64,000 bases of DNA from Anaerolineae bacterium. GTDB taxonomy: Bacteria; Chloroflexota; Anaerolineae; Aggregatilineales; Phototrophicaceae. Shown here piece by piece: positions 15,268 through 23,836 of this stretch. The translations under genes were made by a program, and so were the position numbers. Each line of letters opens with the position of its first letter. The stretch's first letter is position 1. Below the pieces are notes generated by a model that searched no databases, was not told where the DNA came from, and saw nothing but the letters and a program-made list of their open reading frames with translations. The DNA is taken from assembly GCA_022842885.1 (NCBI GenBank), contig JALHOR010000013.1:1-64000 (forward strand). The letters are read 5' to 3'.

Positions 15268-15681
15268 TTATTCATCTTTTAACTGCTCAATTCGGGAATG
15301 CTGCCCTAACCAAGCGGCGATGCTATCGGTGGTTTGTTCGCCTTTGGCAACCGATAACACAAATTCGTATTCGGTGCGTTCATCCCAATTGGGTTGGATG
15401 CCGTTGAGTTCCAAAAAGCGCGTCACTGCCCGAATCGCCGTGCGTTTGTTGCCATCAGCAAACAGATGATGATATGCCAACGAGTGCATCAGCGCCGCAG
15501 CTTTATCTAGCACCGACGGGAATTGCGGCTCGCCGAATAAACTCAAGCGTGGGCGACGCACGGCATATTGCAACATATTCCGGTCTCGCACGAAAGGCAA
15601 CTCCCCTATCATTTGGGCGTTGATGTCGTATAAATCATTGGCAGTCAAATAAATAATCGGTTTATCGTCCTGCGAGTTCAT
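15268..15681 (-). CDS. Doc-type Fic protein 2 (death-on-curing family)
   Basis: A 137-residue protein with the Doc/Fic signature HxFxDGNKR (HHLFADGNKRTA) and the flanking helices of the Doc family. P1 Doc phosphorylates EF-Tu and is neutralised by Phd; related Fic proteins AMPylate targets. Its first 20 bases overlap the end of the upstream Doc gene, so both are co-expressed. No Phd-like or other antitoxin gene of ordinary size adjoins. The catalytic motif looks intact. Confidence 0.85.
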   Translation of the reverse strand: MNSQDDKPIIYLTANDLYDINAQMIGELPFVRDRNMLQYAVRRPRLSLFGEPQFPSVLDKAAALMHSLAYHHLFADGNKRTAIRAVTRFLELNGIQPNWDERTEYEFVLSVAKGEQTTDSIAAWLGQHSRIEQLKDE

Positions 15682-16144
15682 TCAGCAACCACCTATGGTC
15701 AAGTAAGAGTCGGTCAATATGTTGGGTATCGAGGTTTACATCGGGTTCTAGGGAAACTTCGCCATCTTCCAAAATCAGCCAATTTGCCAATGCCAGCATG
15801 TCTTGATGACCTTCTGCCACTGCCACAATCATGTCTAATGCCTCAGTGGGAGTCCAGCGCACTTGCTGCCCATTTACTTCTAGCATGAGCAGCATCGCAA
15901 CGGTGGCAGTCCGTTTGTTGCCATCTTTAAATGGATGATTACGGGCGATAGAATGCATGAGTGCCGCGGCTTTTTCGCGCAGCGTTGGGTAAGCATCGGC
16001 ACCAAAGGCGCTTGCTTGCGGGCGGGCTTCTGCTGCCAACAGCAAATCAATATCGCGGACTTTTTGTTTGCCTGCCATGATATGTTCATCATCCAAAACT
16101 TTGCCGTTGATAAAAATCAGTTCGCTGTAGGTCAAATACCGCAT
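15662..16144 (-). CDS. Doc-type Fic protein 1 (death-on-curing family)
   Basis: A 160-residue paralogue of the gene that follows it, with signature NHPFKDGNKRTA (His nucleophile region and anion-binding loop intact). The N-terminus MRYLTYSELIFINGKVL is typical of Doc proteins. A C-terminal extension of about 35 residues (from LEDGEVSLE) is absent from most short Doc proteins; it contains a helix (DRLLLDHRWLLNEL) that might act as a built-in inhibitor, which is speculative. Divergent from the gene at 16285. Confidence 0.86.
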   Translation of the reverse strand: MRYLTYSELIFINGKVLDDEHIMAGKQKVRDIDLLLAAEARPQASAFGADAYPTLREKAAALMHSIARNHPFKDGNKRTATVAMLLMLEVNGQQVRWTPTEALDMIVAVAEGHQDMLALANWLILEDGEVSLEPDVNLDTQHIDRLLLDHRWLLNELAGR

Positions 16145-20541: not shown

Positions 20542-21258
20542 TTATTCATCCAAATAGTCAAACGGGTCAGGTTGGGGGGCTGGTTTAAAGAACATGGTCG
20601 CCGCAAACATAATGGCAACCCCCGCCACAAAACCGCCAATATGCGCCCAATGCGCCACCCCATCGGATGAAATCCAGCCGACCCCTTGCAAAAAGTCTAA
20701 AACGAACCAATACCCCAAGAAAATGACGGCGGGCAGTTTCATCTCCCAGAAGAAGGGTTTAAACAAACCGACCATCGTGCGAACTCGTGCGCCCGGATAC
20801 AAGAATAAAAATGCGCCCATCACGCCGGCAATCGCGCCCGATGCACCAATGACAAAGGCAGTTTGCCCTGTGAGGGTGCAAGCAATCCCGCCGAACAAAA
20901 CATGCCCTAACGTGGCGGCTGAACCTGCGGCGATATAGAAAACAGCGAACCACACGCGCCCAAAATATTCTTCGACCTTTTTGCCAAAGACCCACAAGAA
21001 CAACATATTGCCGAATAGATGCATGATGTCGGCGTGGAGGAACATGCTTCTAAAATTATCCAATGCCAAGATAGGCAGTGGTTCGACGCCCACTTTGCAC
21101 ACATCCAGCGCATAAGCACGCAGAAACGCCGTAAAAGCGGTGCCGCCTTTTGCCTGTACCGAAAGCTCCCAAATGAAAACCAGAATGTTTATGGCAATCA
21201 GCAGGTACACCAAGACTGGTTGATATTTGCTTCTGCCGACAACGCTCAGTGGTAACAT
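20542..21258 (-). CDS. Rhomboid family intramembrane serine protease, third in trio
   Basis: A 238-residue polytopic protein. The catalytic Ser lies in GASGAIAG, the catalytic His in HWAHIGGF and the HxxxN oxyanion-hole motif is HLFGN, so all active residues are present. Cleaves single-pass membrane proteins within the bilayer. It ends in a short polar tail with PAPQPDPFDYLDE, echoed in the two upstream paralogues. Last gene of a three-rhomboid run (gaps 13 and 36 bp), followed by a strong terminator. Confidence 0.93.
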   Translation of the reverse strand: MLPLSVVGRSKYQPVLVYLLIAINILVFIWELSVQAKGGTAFTAFLRAYALDVCKVGVEPLPILALDNFRSMFLHADIMHLFGNMLFLWVFGKKVEEYFGRVWFAVFYIAAGSAATLGHVLFGGIACTLTGQTAFVIGASGAIAGVMGAFLFLYPGARVRTMVGLFKPFFWEMKLPAVIFLGYWFVLDFLQGVGWISSDGVAHWAHIGGFVAGVAIMFAATMFFKPAPQPDPFDYLDE

Positions 21259-21294
21259 ATGCCATCATCTCCGCTGTAAAACTGGCTCAAAAAT

Positions 21295-22008
21295 TTAGCG
21301 TTCTAATTGTTCAAGTTGGTCTACTTTGGGCGCAGGCACAAACAACGTTGCCATGAACAGCAGCACCAAACCGCTGACAAAGCCGCCGATATGCGCCCAA
21401 TGCGCCACATTCCCGGCATCGGGGAAGATTAAGCCCATCACATCGGTTGCTACCCACACCAGCAGATAAACCGCCGCCGGAACATTGATGACCGTAACGG
21501 GAATCCGAAACAGCAAAATTGCGGTGCGAATACGTGAACCCGGATAGAGGAATAAGAACGCGCCCATAATGCCAGCAATCGCGCCCGATGCCCCGACCAA
21601 AATATCTTTGCCAAACTCATTGACTGGGCAAGCGACCCCACCCAAAATCACATGGGCAATCGTCGCCAGAAAACCGACAATCAGATAAAACGTCAGGAAG
21701 CGTTTTGCCCCAAAATATTCTTCTACGCGAGGCGCAAAAATCCACAAGAAAATCATGTTAAACAGGATATGCATCGGGCTGCCATGCAAGAACATCGTGA
21801 ACAGCGCATTACGGAACGTTAGCGTAATCGGTTCGATGCCAATCTGGCAGGAATTGAGCGCGTAGGTCTGGAAAAAGTGTTTTATGGCGGCTTCGCCTGA
21901 TAAAAACACCGGTATCTGTATCAAAAAGACCAACACATTGAGCGCAATCAAGGCGAAGGTCATATACGGGCGAAAATCACGCCGACCAATGGTGCCAATC
22001 GGTAACAT
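21295..22008 (-). CDS. Rhomboid family intramembrane serine protease, second in trio
   Basis: A 237-residue paralogue with intact active site: Ser in GASGAIAG, His in HWAHIGGF, HxxxN as HILFN. Six or so transmembrane helices. C-terminal tail PAPKVDQLEQLER. Probably co-transcribed with its neighbours. Confidence 0.93.
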   Translation of the reverse strand: MLPIGTIGRRDFRPYMTFALIALNVLVFLIQIPVFLSGEAAIKHFFQTYALNSCQIGIEPITLTFRNALFTMFLHGSPMHILFNMIFLWIFAPRVEEYFGAKRFLTFYLIVGFLATIAHVILGGVACPVNEFGKDILVGASGAIAGIMGAFLFLYPGSRIRTAILLFRIPVTVINVPAAVYLLVWVATDVMGLIFPDAGNVAHWAHIGGFVSGLVLLFMATLFVPAPKVDQLEQLER

Positions 22009-22021
22009 AATGGACTACCTT

Positions 22022-22708
22022 CTAATCTAAATGCTCAAGCGGGTCGCCTTTGGGCGCTGGTTTAAAGAGTGTCACTACAAACATCAAGCCAAAGCCCGTG
22101 ACAAATCCACCCATTTCATCCCAATAGGGCGCAATTGTCCCAGACAGGGGGCCCCCTTCAGCGATGAGGGCTTGCATGGCAAGATATGCCGCCACGAAGA
22201 AAATCGCCGGAAAGTCGAATTTGCGTGCCATCACCGGGATAAAGGTTTCCACTCGTTTGGCAGGATATAAGAATAAAAACGCGCCCATCACACCGGCAAT
22301 CGCGCCCGATGTCCCAATCAAGGGAGTGCAATCGCCGCGATTAAACAAGATGCTGGCAATATGCCCGCCAAAACCCGCGATAAAGAAAAACATCAAGAAG
22401 CGGCGATGCCCCAAAAATGCCTCAACCACGGGCGCAAAAATCCACAAAAAGACCATATTCATCAAAAATTGCGTAAAACTACCATGCAAAAAGAGGCTGC
22501 GAACCCCATCTATGAGGGTTTCACTGAATGCTTGCTGCCCAACTTGGCACGGCACCAAAGCAAAATTCTGGAAATAATTTTCCATGGGTTGCCCTTGCTG
22601 CGCGGCATACCCAATTTCCCAGATGAAAAATGCCAACGTTAGCACCAGCAGGGCAAAACTAGCATATGCCCGAAAGTCATTTTTACCCACCACACGATAC
22701 GGTATCAT
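22022..22708 (-). CDS. Rhomboid-like protein lacking catalytic His, first in trio
   Basis: A 228-residue rhomboid fold with the Ser loop kept (GTSGAIAGVMGAF), but the catalytic His position of the last helix reads YWDEMGGF instead of HWAHIGGF, and the His of HxxxN reads QFLMN. It should therefore be proteolytically dead, like the iRhom/pseudorhomboid class, unless Glu compensates. The C-terminal tail PAPKGDPLEHLD matches the active paralogues. As the first gene of the operon it may bind substrates or regulate the other two; that is inference. Confidence 0.88.
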   Translation of the reverse strand: MIPYRVVGKNDFRAYASFALLVLTLAFFIWEIGYAAQQGQPMENYFQNFALVPCQVGQQAFSETLIDGVRSLFLHGSFTQFLMNMVFLWIFAPVVEAFLGHRRFLMFFFIAGFGGHIASILFNRGDCTPLIGTSGAIAGVMGAFLFLYPAKRVETFIPVMARKFDFPAIFFVAAYLAMQALIAEGGPLSGTIAPYWDEMGGFVTGFGLMFVVTLFKPAPKGDPLEHLD

Positions 22709-22849: not shown

Positions 22850-23344
22850 TTATGGTGCTTGCAGGTAAGCCGCAAGTTCAGTGAGGGTTGGGAGGGTAGC
22901 AGTGCGGTGAACTTCTTGTCCGCTGGCATCAAAGACCAGAAAAGTGGGGGTACTCACAAATTTAAAACGTTCCAGCAAATCGCGCCCCGGTGTGGCATGA
23001 ATATCCAACAGCAGCACGTTAAATCCGGTTGCTTCTAACTGAGGTGTTGTTTCGCGCACGGCGGAGACTTGTCCCAAACAGCCGAGTCAGTAGTTGCTAT
23101 ACAGCAGCAGCAAACTAGGCGAGCCATTGTTTAAGTAAGTCTCAACTTGTGCCGCTGTCGTAATCTCAGGTGTGGCAGGATAGCGCCCCAGCCACGCCAC
23201 CCCCACTACCGCGAATACATACCACGCCATTATTCCAGCACGCACCCAAGGATTGCCACGCTGCCAACGCCACAGCAAGCCTAACAACCCTACCCCGGCG
23301 CTGCCCGCCAACAACAAAAAGGAATATTGATTAAAAAAATTCAT
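22850..23344 (-). CDS. Membrane-anchored thioredoxin-like protein, candidate selenoprotein (UxxC)
   Basis: Two in-frame open stretches are separated only by one TGA codon. Read through, they give 164 residues: transmembrane helices at about 8-27 and 36-53, then a thioredoxin fold. The active site reads YSNY-(TGA)-LGC-LGQV, so TGA is codon 86, exactly where the first Cys of CxxC should be; the second Cys is C89. The cis-Pro segment STPTF (P133) and the final helix are intact, and no other stop or shift is seen. The simplest reading is selenocysteine (UxxC); a nonsense mutation of a Cys codon is the alternative. The start lies 9 bp after the stop of the upstream gene, so the two are probably co-translated. 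It should act as a thiol redox protein at the membrane. Confidence 0.72.
23087..23089 (-). other. Candidate selenocysteine codon (TGA)
   Basis: In-frame TGA at codon 86 of the thioredoxin-like gene. In the RNA, GACU (using GA of UGA) can pair with AGUC and UGU with ACA around a UUGGG loop, with a four-base bulge. Alternatively CGGC can pair with GCCG enclosing GGGA/UCUC. The first loop is nearer the UGA than usual for bacterial SECIS elements, so the fold is suggestive only. Confidence 0.5.
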
Positions 23345-23353
23345 CCCGTGCGA

Positions 23354-23716
23354 TTAGTTGTCTTCAGTGTGTTCTTGGGCTTTGATAATCGCGCTTTCCC
23401 ACCGATCATCTAATTCGATGACATGGGTTTCGGCATCAAGAGTTTCTTTCACCCATTGCCAGGCTTCATGATGGTCATAGCGCGGATTGATGGCGAATAA
23501 CACGCGCCCAATGAGGCGGCGCTGGAAAAACGACCCCGATGGTGGTTGTAAGATACAACTCATATTGCTGACGAATTCCAAAACTTCTGGGTCGGCAGAT
23601 AACCAAAAACACCATAACCCTCTATCCAAGAAAGGGTCGGATAGATGATAGGGGCGTGGCGTTGGTGGTAAGCGGCGGGGAGGTTGCAAAGGGTTTGTCC
23701 CATCAGAATAATTCAC
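23354..23716 (-). CDS. Hypothetical protein upstream of thioredoxin-like gene
   Basis: About 120 residues from a GTG at 23716, chosen because GAGGAGA lies seven bases upstream; a TTG at 23731 would place the SD inside the gene. Pro-rich start (LQPPRRLPPTPRPYH), then a Trp-rich segment (DRGLWCFWLSADPEVLEF) and an acidic C-terminus. No membrane segment. The family is not recognised. Its stop is 9 bp from the start of the thioredoxin-like gene, which suggests a shared function. Confidence 0.65.
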   Translation of the reverse strand: MNYSDGTNPLQPPRRLPPTPRPYHLSDPFLDRGLWCFWLSADPEVLEFVSNMSCILQPPSGSFFQRRLIGRVLFAINPRYDHHEAWQWVKETLDAETHVIELDDRWESAIIKAQEHTEDN

Positions 23717-23836
23717 AAAATTTCTCCTCAATTGCCGGAAAAAAGCCTCATGAATTTATCATAAGCGATTTTTCCTAGCACCACTCCCCTGAAAAAAGGG
23801 GGGATTTATAGTGCGCCGACGTGGGTTCTGATAGGC

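Follow-up and report, generated by a model that had tools for sequence, protein, structure and literature searches.

The minus-strand gene at positions 22850 to 23344 of the window (the whole 64,000-nucleotide stretch of DNA analyzed here) encodes, with high probability, a membrane-anchored thioredoxin-like selenoprotein, in which SelB and tRNA-Sec would read UGA codon 86 as selenocysteine (Sec) by means of a downstream hairpin. On sequence grounds, readthrough of the UGA to Sec is very likely, and the comparisons described below likewise support an exchange of UGA and Cys codons among relatives, the presence of the decoding machinery, selection after the UGA, a hairpin shared by the family, and a thioredoxin fold.

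An in-frame UGA at the active site of a thioredoxin-like gene

The frame runs from 23344 to 22850 as 164 codons followed by TAA, and its sole internal TGA is codon 86 (23089-23087). An earlier sequence-only reading had given the same coordinates and the same codon, which are borne out here; the strand, which it left unstated, is minus. The features of the gene and its immediate surroundings are as follows.

22850..23344, minus strand: candidate selenoprotein coding sequence, 164 residues, residue 86 being Sec; ATG at 23344, TAA at 22852-22850
23087..23089, minus strand: in-frame UGA, codon 86, first position of UxxC, putative selenocysteine
23078..23080, minus strand: codon of Cys89, the resolving cysteine of UxxC
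23354..23731, minus strand: preceding gene, encoding a 125-aa protein; ends 9 nt before the selenoprotein start

The translation of the candidate reads MNFFNQYSFLLLAG...LLLLYSNY-U-LGCLGQVSAVR...FVSTPTFLVFD...LAAYLQAP. As had been noted from the sequence alone, the TGA falls exactly on the first Cys of a CxxC motif (YSNY-U-LGC), accompanied by a cis-Pro segment (STPTF) and by two hydrophobic helices upstream. Of the six possible frames, the candidate one has the best codon-usage scores both before and after the TGA. The full-length ATG itself has no good Shine-Dalgarno sequence (upstream ...CAACTAATCGCACGGG-ATG), which weakens the earlier argument that the downstream half alone has no usable one, and this argument for readthrough was dropped. 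The position of the start, 9 nt past the stop of the preceding gene, suggests translational coupling, and the two genes are probably cotranscribed; the preceding 125-aa protein has no match in Pfam. Just downstream of the selenoprotein gene lie three tandem genes resembling rhomboid-family proteases (20542-22708, minus strand). At 15268-16144 of the window, also on the minus strand, two adjacent ORFs look Fic/Doc-like by eye, with HxFxDGNKR motifs, and are possibly a toxin-antitoxin remnant.

UGA and cysteine codons exchange recurrently among homologs

Homologs were sought at the order level (151 genomes, matches in 68) and, with a profile, at the phylum level (400 genomes, matches in 102). 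A total of 121 distinct Chloroflexota homologs were read through TGA and then aligned; one contig pattern scan used a Cys-only pattern and therefore reports Cys forms only. The column of window codon 86, and exactly this column, holds either TGA (69/121) or Cys (52/121), so that the alignment of homologs proposed in the sequence-only reading came out in favor of Sec. All in-frame TGAs (69/69) fall in this one column, which excludes chance, and other internal stops, which that reading would have counted against Sec, occur in none of the 121 homologs. The second Cys is kept in 114 of the 121 and is replaced by Ser in seven TGA forms (UxxS), and conserved proline 133 is invariant in the aligned relatives. 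Given that TGA is one base away from TGC and TGT, a sequencing error or the simple mutation of a Cys codon to a stop might be considered, but distinct homologs with TGA in the same column, 69 in all, include the two nearest family members (G006 and G010); this reading is already contradicted by the homologous sequences, and we give it hardly any credence.

When the Sec/Cys column is left out of tree construction, the resulting tree needs at least 15 Sec/Cys changes, which indicates that the exchange recurs. The TGA form of G006 clusters with the window protein (SH-aLRT 89) within a supported, mostly TGA set of ten, and the nearest Sec relative of the window protein is 48% identical to it. The same genome also encodes a Cys paralog with the motif NYCTGC (L049, G000:C22:24427-25700), which is placed in a separate, Cys-dominated region of the tree. 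The same-genus genome G001 holds neither selA nor a copy from the Sec clade of the window protein, so that loss is possible.

The UxxS variants (motifs HYUASS, HYUAKS, HYUARS, and DTUGAS) retain Sec and have Ser in place of the resolving Cys. They were found in L143, L147, L149, and L150 (tandem pairs; also L164), and in L159, L161, and L162; in one family, a UxxS copy stands in tandem with a UxxC copy, with TGA in both. The family comprises two-helix and single-helix forms. No constant gene neighbor was found around the family genes, and plasmid and phage searches returned no family match. One subfamily has genes for an MBL-fold hydrolase and a metalloenzyme as neighbors, and a classical thioredoxin gene (trxA) adjoins the single-helix TGA form in two instances (L155:1880-2311 and L163:1141-1509), where it is a possible electron partner.

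The genome holds the selenocysteine machinery

Contig C13, to which the window belongs, comes from a Chloroflexota assembly of 6.0 Mb and 252 contigs that is 93.7% complete. This assembly contains selA (550.7 bits), selB (377.7 bits, against a cutoff of 242), selD (381.5 bits), and tRNA-Sec (71.8 bits; reported by ARAGORN as tRNA-SeC with anticodon tca), all on contigs other than that of the window. The earlier remark that none of the sel genes lies in the window thus holds, with no tRNA-Sec found within it either, and the genome-wide search for them that was suggested at the time supports Sec. By sequence reading, selD (L089, reverse strand near 2415, G000:C88) itself contains one in-frame TGA, in MTTDIKLTALAACAGUAAKLGPRD, and we take its place in CAGUAAKLGPRD to be the known Sec position of SelD. 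With the sel genes, the tRNA-Sec, and a Sec-type selD in place, decoding of UGA as Sec is expected here on independent grounds. A search of the same genome for molybdopterin oxidoreductases found none with TGA.

The machinery also bears on whether UGA might be read as another residue, through reassignment to Trp or Cys or through near-cognate readthrough. Such decoding would likewise leave the frame open through the UGA. However, TGA is the stop of 5 of the 44 long ORFs in the window, which shows that it is an ordinary stop here and that the code is not globally reassigned; moreover, the genome has a dedicated tRNA-Sec (TCA anticodon) and all sel genes, and the residue exchanged with UGA is always the catalytic Cys. 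We therefore regard decoding as another residue as extremely improbable.

Testing of 66 genomes for selA gave a match in each of the 25 with a TGA form; a few of these matches, being contig-end fragments, fall below the curated cutoff, and the fragment in G051 is weak. The gene was detected in 25 of the 41 Cys-only genomes and was absent from the other 16, two weak matches being counted as absent. The association of selA with the TGA form is significant by Fisher's test when kinship is ignored (p = 0.0002, or 0.0013 with G051 counted as absent); a phylogenetic pair test of the Sec form against selA had only four supported pairs.

A hairpin at fixed distance from the UGA

The hairpin considered here lies shortly after the UGA.

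23049..23067, minus strand: site at which TGA relatives have a conserved SECIS-like hairpin; only a short CGC/GCG stem with a CGUGC apex is left here

In the TGA forms, its consensus is GCCC(A/G)UC-GU(G/C)-GA(U/C)GGGC, with the loop fixed at 27 nt after the UGA codon. These forms have a mean of 6.06 of 7 pairs, compared to 4.43 +/- 0.10 after synonymous codon randomization, and sliding the register by 1 to 3 nt leaves 1.4 to 2.9 pairs. Cys forms, in contrast, have a mean of 3.37 pairs where 3.13 are expected. Thus, the hairpin exceeds what codon choice explains in the TGA forms and not in the Cys forms. The pair 27-35 is A-U in 35 TGA forms of the comparable set, G-C in 29, and off-diagonal in 3; its covariation is strong in TGA forms (p = 2e-15) and not in Cys forms (p = 0.47; Fisher's test in both cases, with sequences counted rather than independent events). 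Position 27 lies in an Ile (AUC) or Val (GUC) codon, and position 35 lies in an Asp codon, GAU or GAC, where the change is silent. Generic shuffles of the 48 nt after the UGA separated TGA from Cys forms weakly (p = 0.036), which is why the fixed register and synonymous randomization are needed.

Published limits for bacterial SECIS elements are a loop of 3 to 9 nt containing G, a stem of at least 4 bp, a position 16 to 37 nt after the UGA, and an MFE of -7.5 or lower (PMC13188914). The family hairpin lies within the loop and spacing limits of that study. The window copy forms 4 of the 7 pairs with a 3-bp inner stem and has an MFE of -7.1 kcal/mol over 48 nt, and so misses the stem and MFE limits; its hairpin is no better than that of synonymous-random codons and is among the four weakest of the set. 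The SECIS check envisaged in the sequence-only reading accordingly has a divided outcome, in that the family has a SECIS-like hairpin but that of the window copy itself is weak. In the selD gene of the same genome, the loop of a 7-bp hairpin is GUG and lies 33 nt after the UGA, which suggests that a GUG apex suits the SelB of this organism. Taken at the level of sequence, the SECIS of the window copy is probably weak yet functional.

Selection after the UGA, and decay as a possible rival

The main rival to a functional but weak SECIS is decay of readthrough. The gene would then have inherited its UGA from a Sec-containing ancestor, its SECIS would have eroded, readthrough would be poor or lost, and the Cys paralog on contig C22 would work instead. 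Such a history would fit the weak hairpin, the presence of the Cys paralog in the same genome, and the loss of selA from the only same-genus genome. It is less easily reconciled with the intact sel genes and Sec-type selD of this genome, or with the 78 codons after the UGA, which over a long branch retain the invariant residues of the family, contain no stop, and show normal codon usage. In addition, the GUG apex, shared with the best hairpin of selD, and the innermost stem persist. We therefore consider decay improbable.

Purifying selection acts after the TGA in close TGA pairs: in most close or moderately close pairs, downstream dN/dS is 0.06 to 0.25 (dS about 0.2 to 1), about as low as before the UGA in the same pairs. 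Some TGA pairs had too few changes for dN/dS to be used, and between the window copy and its nearest TGA relatives dS is saturated, so these values cover other family members. The preference for Sec insertion over decay in the sequence-only reading is supported by the sel genes and tRNA-Sec, the Cys-or-TGA column, the lack of other stops, and the family hairpin.

A predicted membrane-anchored thioredoxin domain

In the AlphaFold model (pLDDT 90.8), a thioredoxin fold comes after two helices (residues 8-26 and 32-52).

23267..23323, minus strand: predicted transmembrane helix 1, residues 8-26 (AlphaFold model)
23189..23251, minus strand: predicted transmembrane helix 2, residues 32-52 (AlphaFold model); a basic loop lies between the helices
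22859..23161, minus strand: thioredoxin-fold domain, residues 62-162
22946..22948, minus strand: codon of conserved proline 133, cis-Pro position (alignment of relatives)

Sec86 directly precedes a helix (residues 87-105) and Pro133 is at the cis-Pro place, so that a thioredoxin fold with UxxC at a helix start and a cis-Pro is present in the predicted model. Among PDB structures, the model is matched best by thioredoxins and by the gamma domain of DsbD (1uc7, 1vrs). Against PF00085, the window protein scores 19.1 (gathering threshold 23.5), and 24 of 27 relatives match at an E value of 0.01 or lower. Basic residues are lacking at the N terminus, and three of them, with no acidic residue, occur in the interhelix loop; an outward-facing thioredoxin domain is what the positive-inside rule would predict. 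Also encoded in the genome are two CcdA-like proteins, one of them a CcdA-TlpA fusion of 651 aa, which might act as electron donors; their roles are assigned by sequence reading.

From these features, we infer an extracytoplasmic reductase with Sec86 as the nucleophile and Cys89 as the resolving residue. SelB and tRNA-Sec would decode UGA codon 86 as Sec, guided by the hairpin just downstream, and the two N-terminal helices would anchor the thioredoxin domain in the membrane, with the domain outside. Sec86 would then attack a substrate disulfide or oxidized thiol, Cys89 would resolve the mixed selenenylsulfide, and rereduction might proceed via a CcdA/DsbD-type transmembrane carrier. Selenium insertion in the window copy, its orientation, its redox direction, and its partner are in this sense predictions.

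Relation to known selenoproteins and thioredoxins

UxxC thioredoxin-like selenoproteins have long been known (PMC9312934, PMC2398784, PMC13188914), whereas the phylum-wide membrane-anchored family, UxxS variants included, seems to be uncatalogued. Sec-containing thioredoxin (PF00085, UxxC) is listed as experimentally verified (PMC9312934, PMC13188914) and likewise has a thioredoxin fold, Sec as the first residue of UxxC, and a cis-Pro; the window protein differs from it by two N-terminal transmembrane helices and by YSNYULGC in place of a WCGPC-type motif. UxxC selenoproteins from marine metagenomes comprise Trx-like 1 and 3 and a thiol:disulfide interchange protein (PMC2398784). The marine Trx-like proteins, compared here by description only, also have UxxC in a thioredoxin-like domain, many Cys homologs, and a predicted redox role, and the word "membrane" is absent from the text of that study (PMC2398784).

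The DsbD gamma domain is both a predicted fold match and the best NCBIfam match of the window protein, at 18.3 bits against a cutoff of 330. In contrast to DsbD, however, the window protein is a stand-alone anchored domain that lacks the CcdA-like core and hence the full DsbD architecture. TlpA/ResA/CcsX and TxlA/HCF164 are membrane-tethered extracytoplasmic thioredoxins. The window protein departs from these in having two helices and a short loop rather than one anchor, and neither the TlpA nor the ResA model of NCBIfam matched it at cutoff. No NCBIfam model, selenoprotein models such as TsoB, GOS_C, and SaoT included, scored over its cutoff for the window protein or the scanned relatives; the best match to a selenoprotein model was TsoB, with 30.6 of 805 bits in relative L155. 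Judged by titles and abstracts, the consulted papers that pair selenoproteins with Chloroflexi or Anaerolineae do not describe the family.

It is thus likely that we are dealing with an undescribed, Chloroflexota-wide family of membrane-anchored thioredoxin-like selenoproteins, with two-helix and single-helix members, recurrent Sec/Cys exchange, a conserved SECIS at fixed distance, and UxxS variants without the resolving Cys, of which some are tandem duplicates. As standard annotation would truncate or discard such genes, it has probably missed a selenoprotein family that is widespread in a phylum largely without cultured members. The 69 Sec and 52 Cys versions of this family, with at least 15 exchanges, amount to a natural experiment on the retention versus loss of Sec, and the family is also useful for asking how much of a bacterial SECIS suffices. 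With the UxxS forms comes the question of what substitutes for the resolving Cys. A distant thioredoxin-like protein with an N-terminal leader, which has WUGSC in L167 (G474) and WCGSC in L166 (G498), is possibly another Sec/Cys pair.
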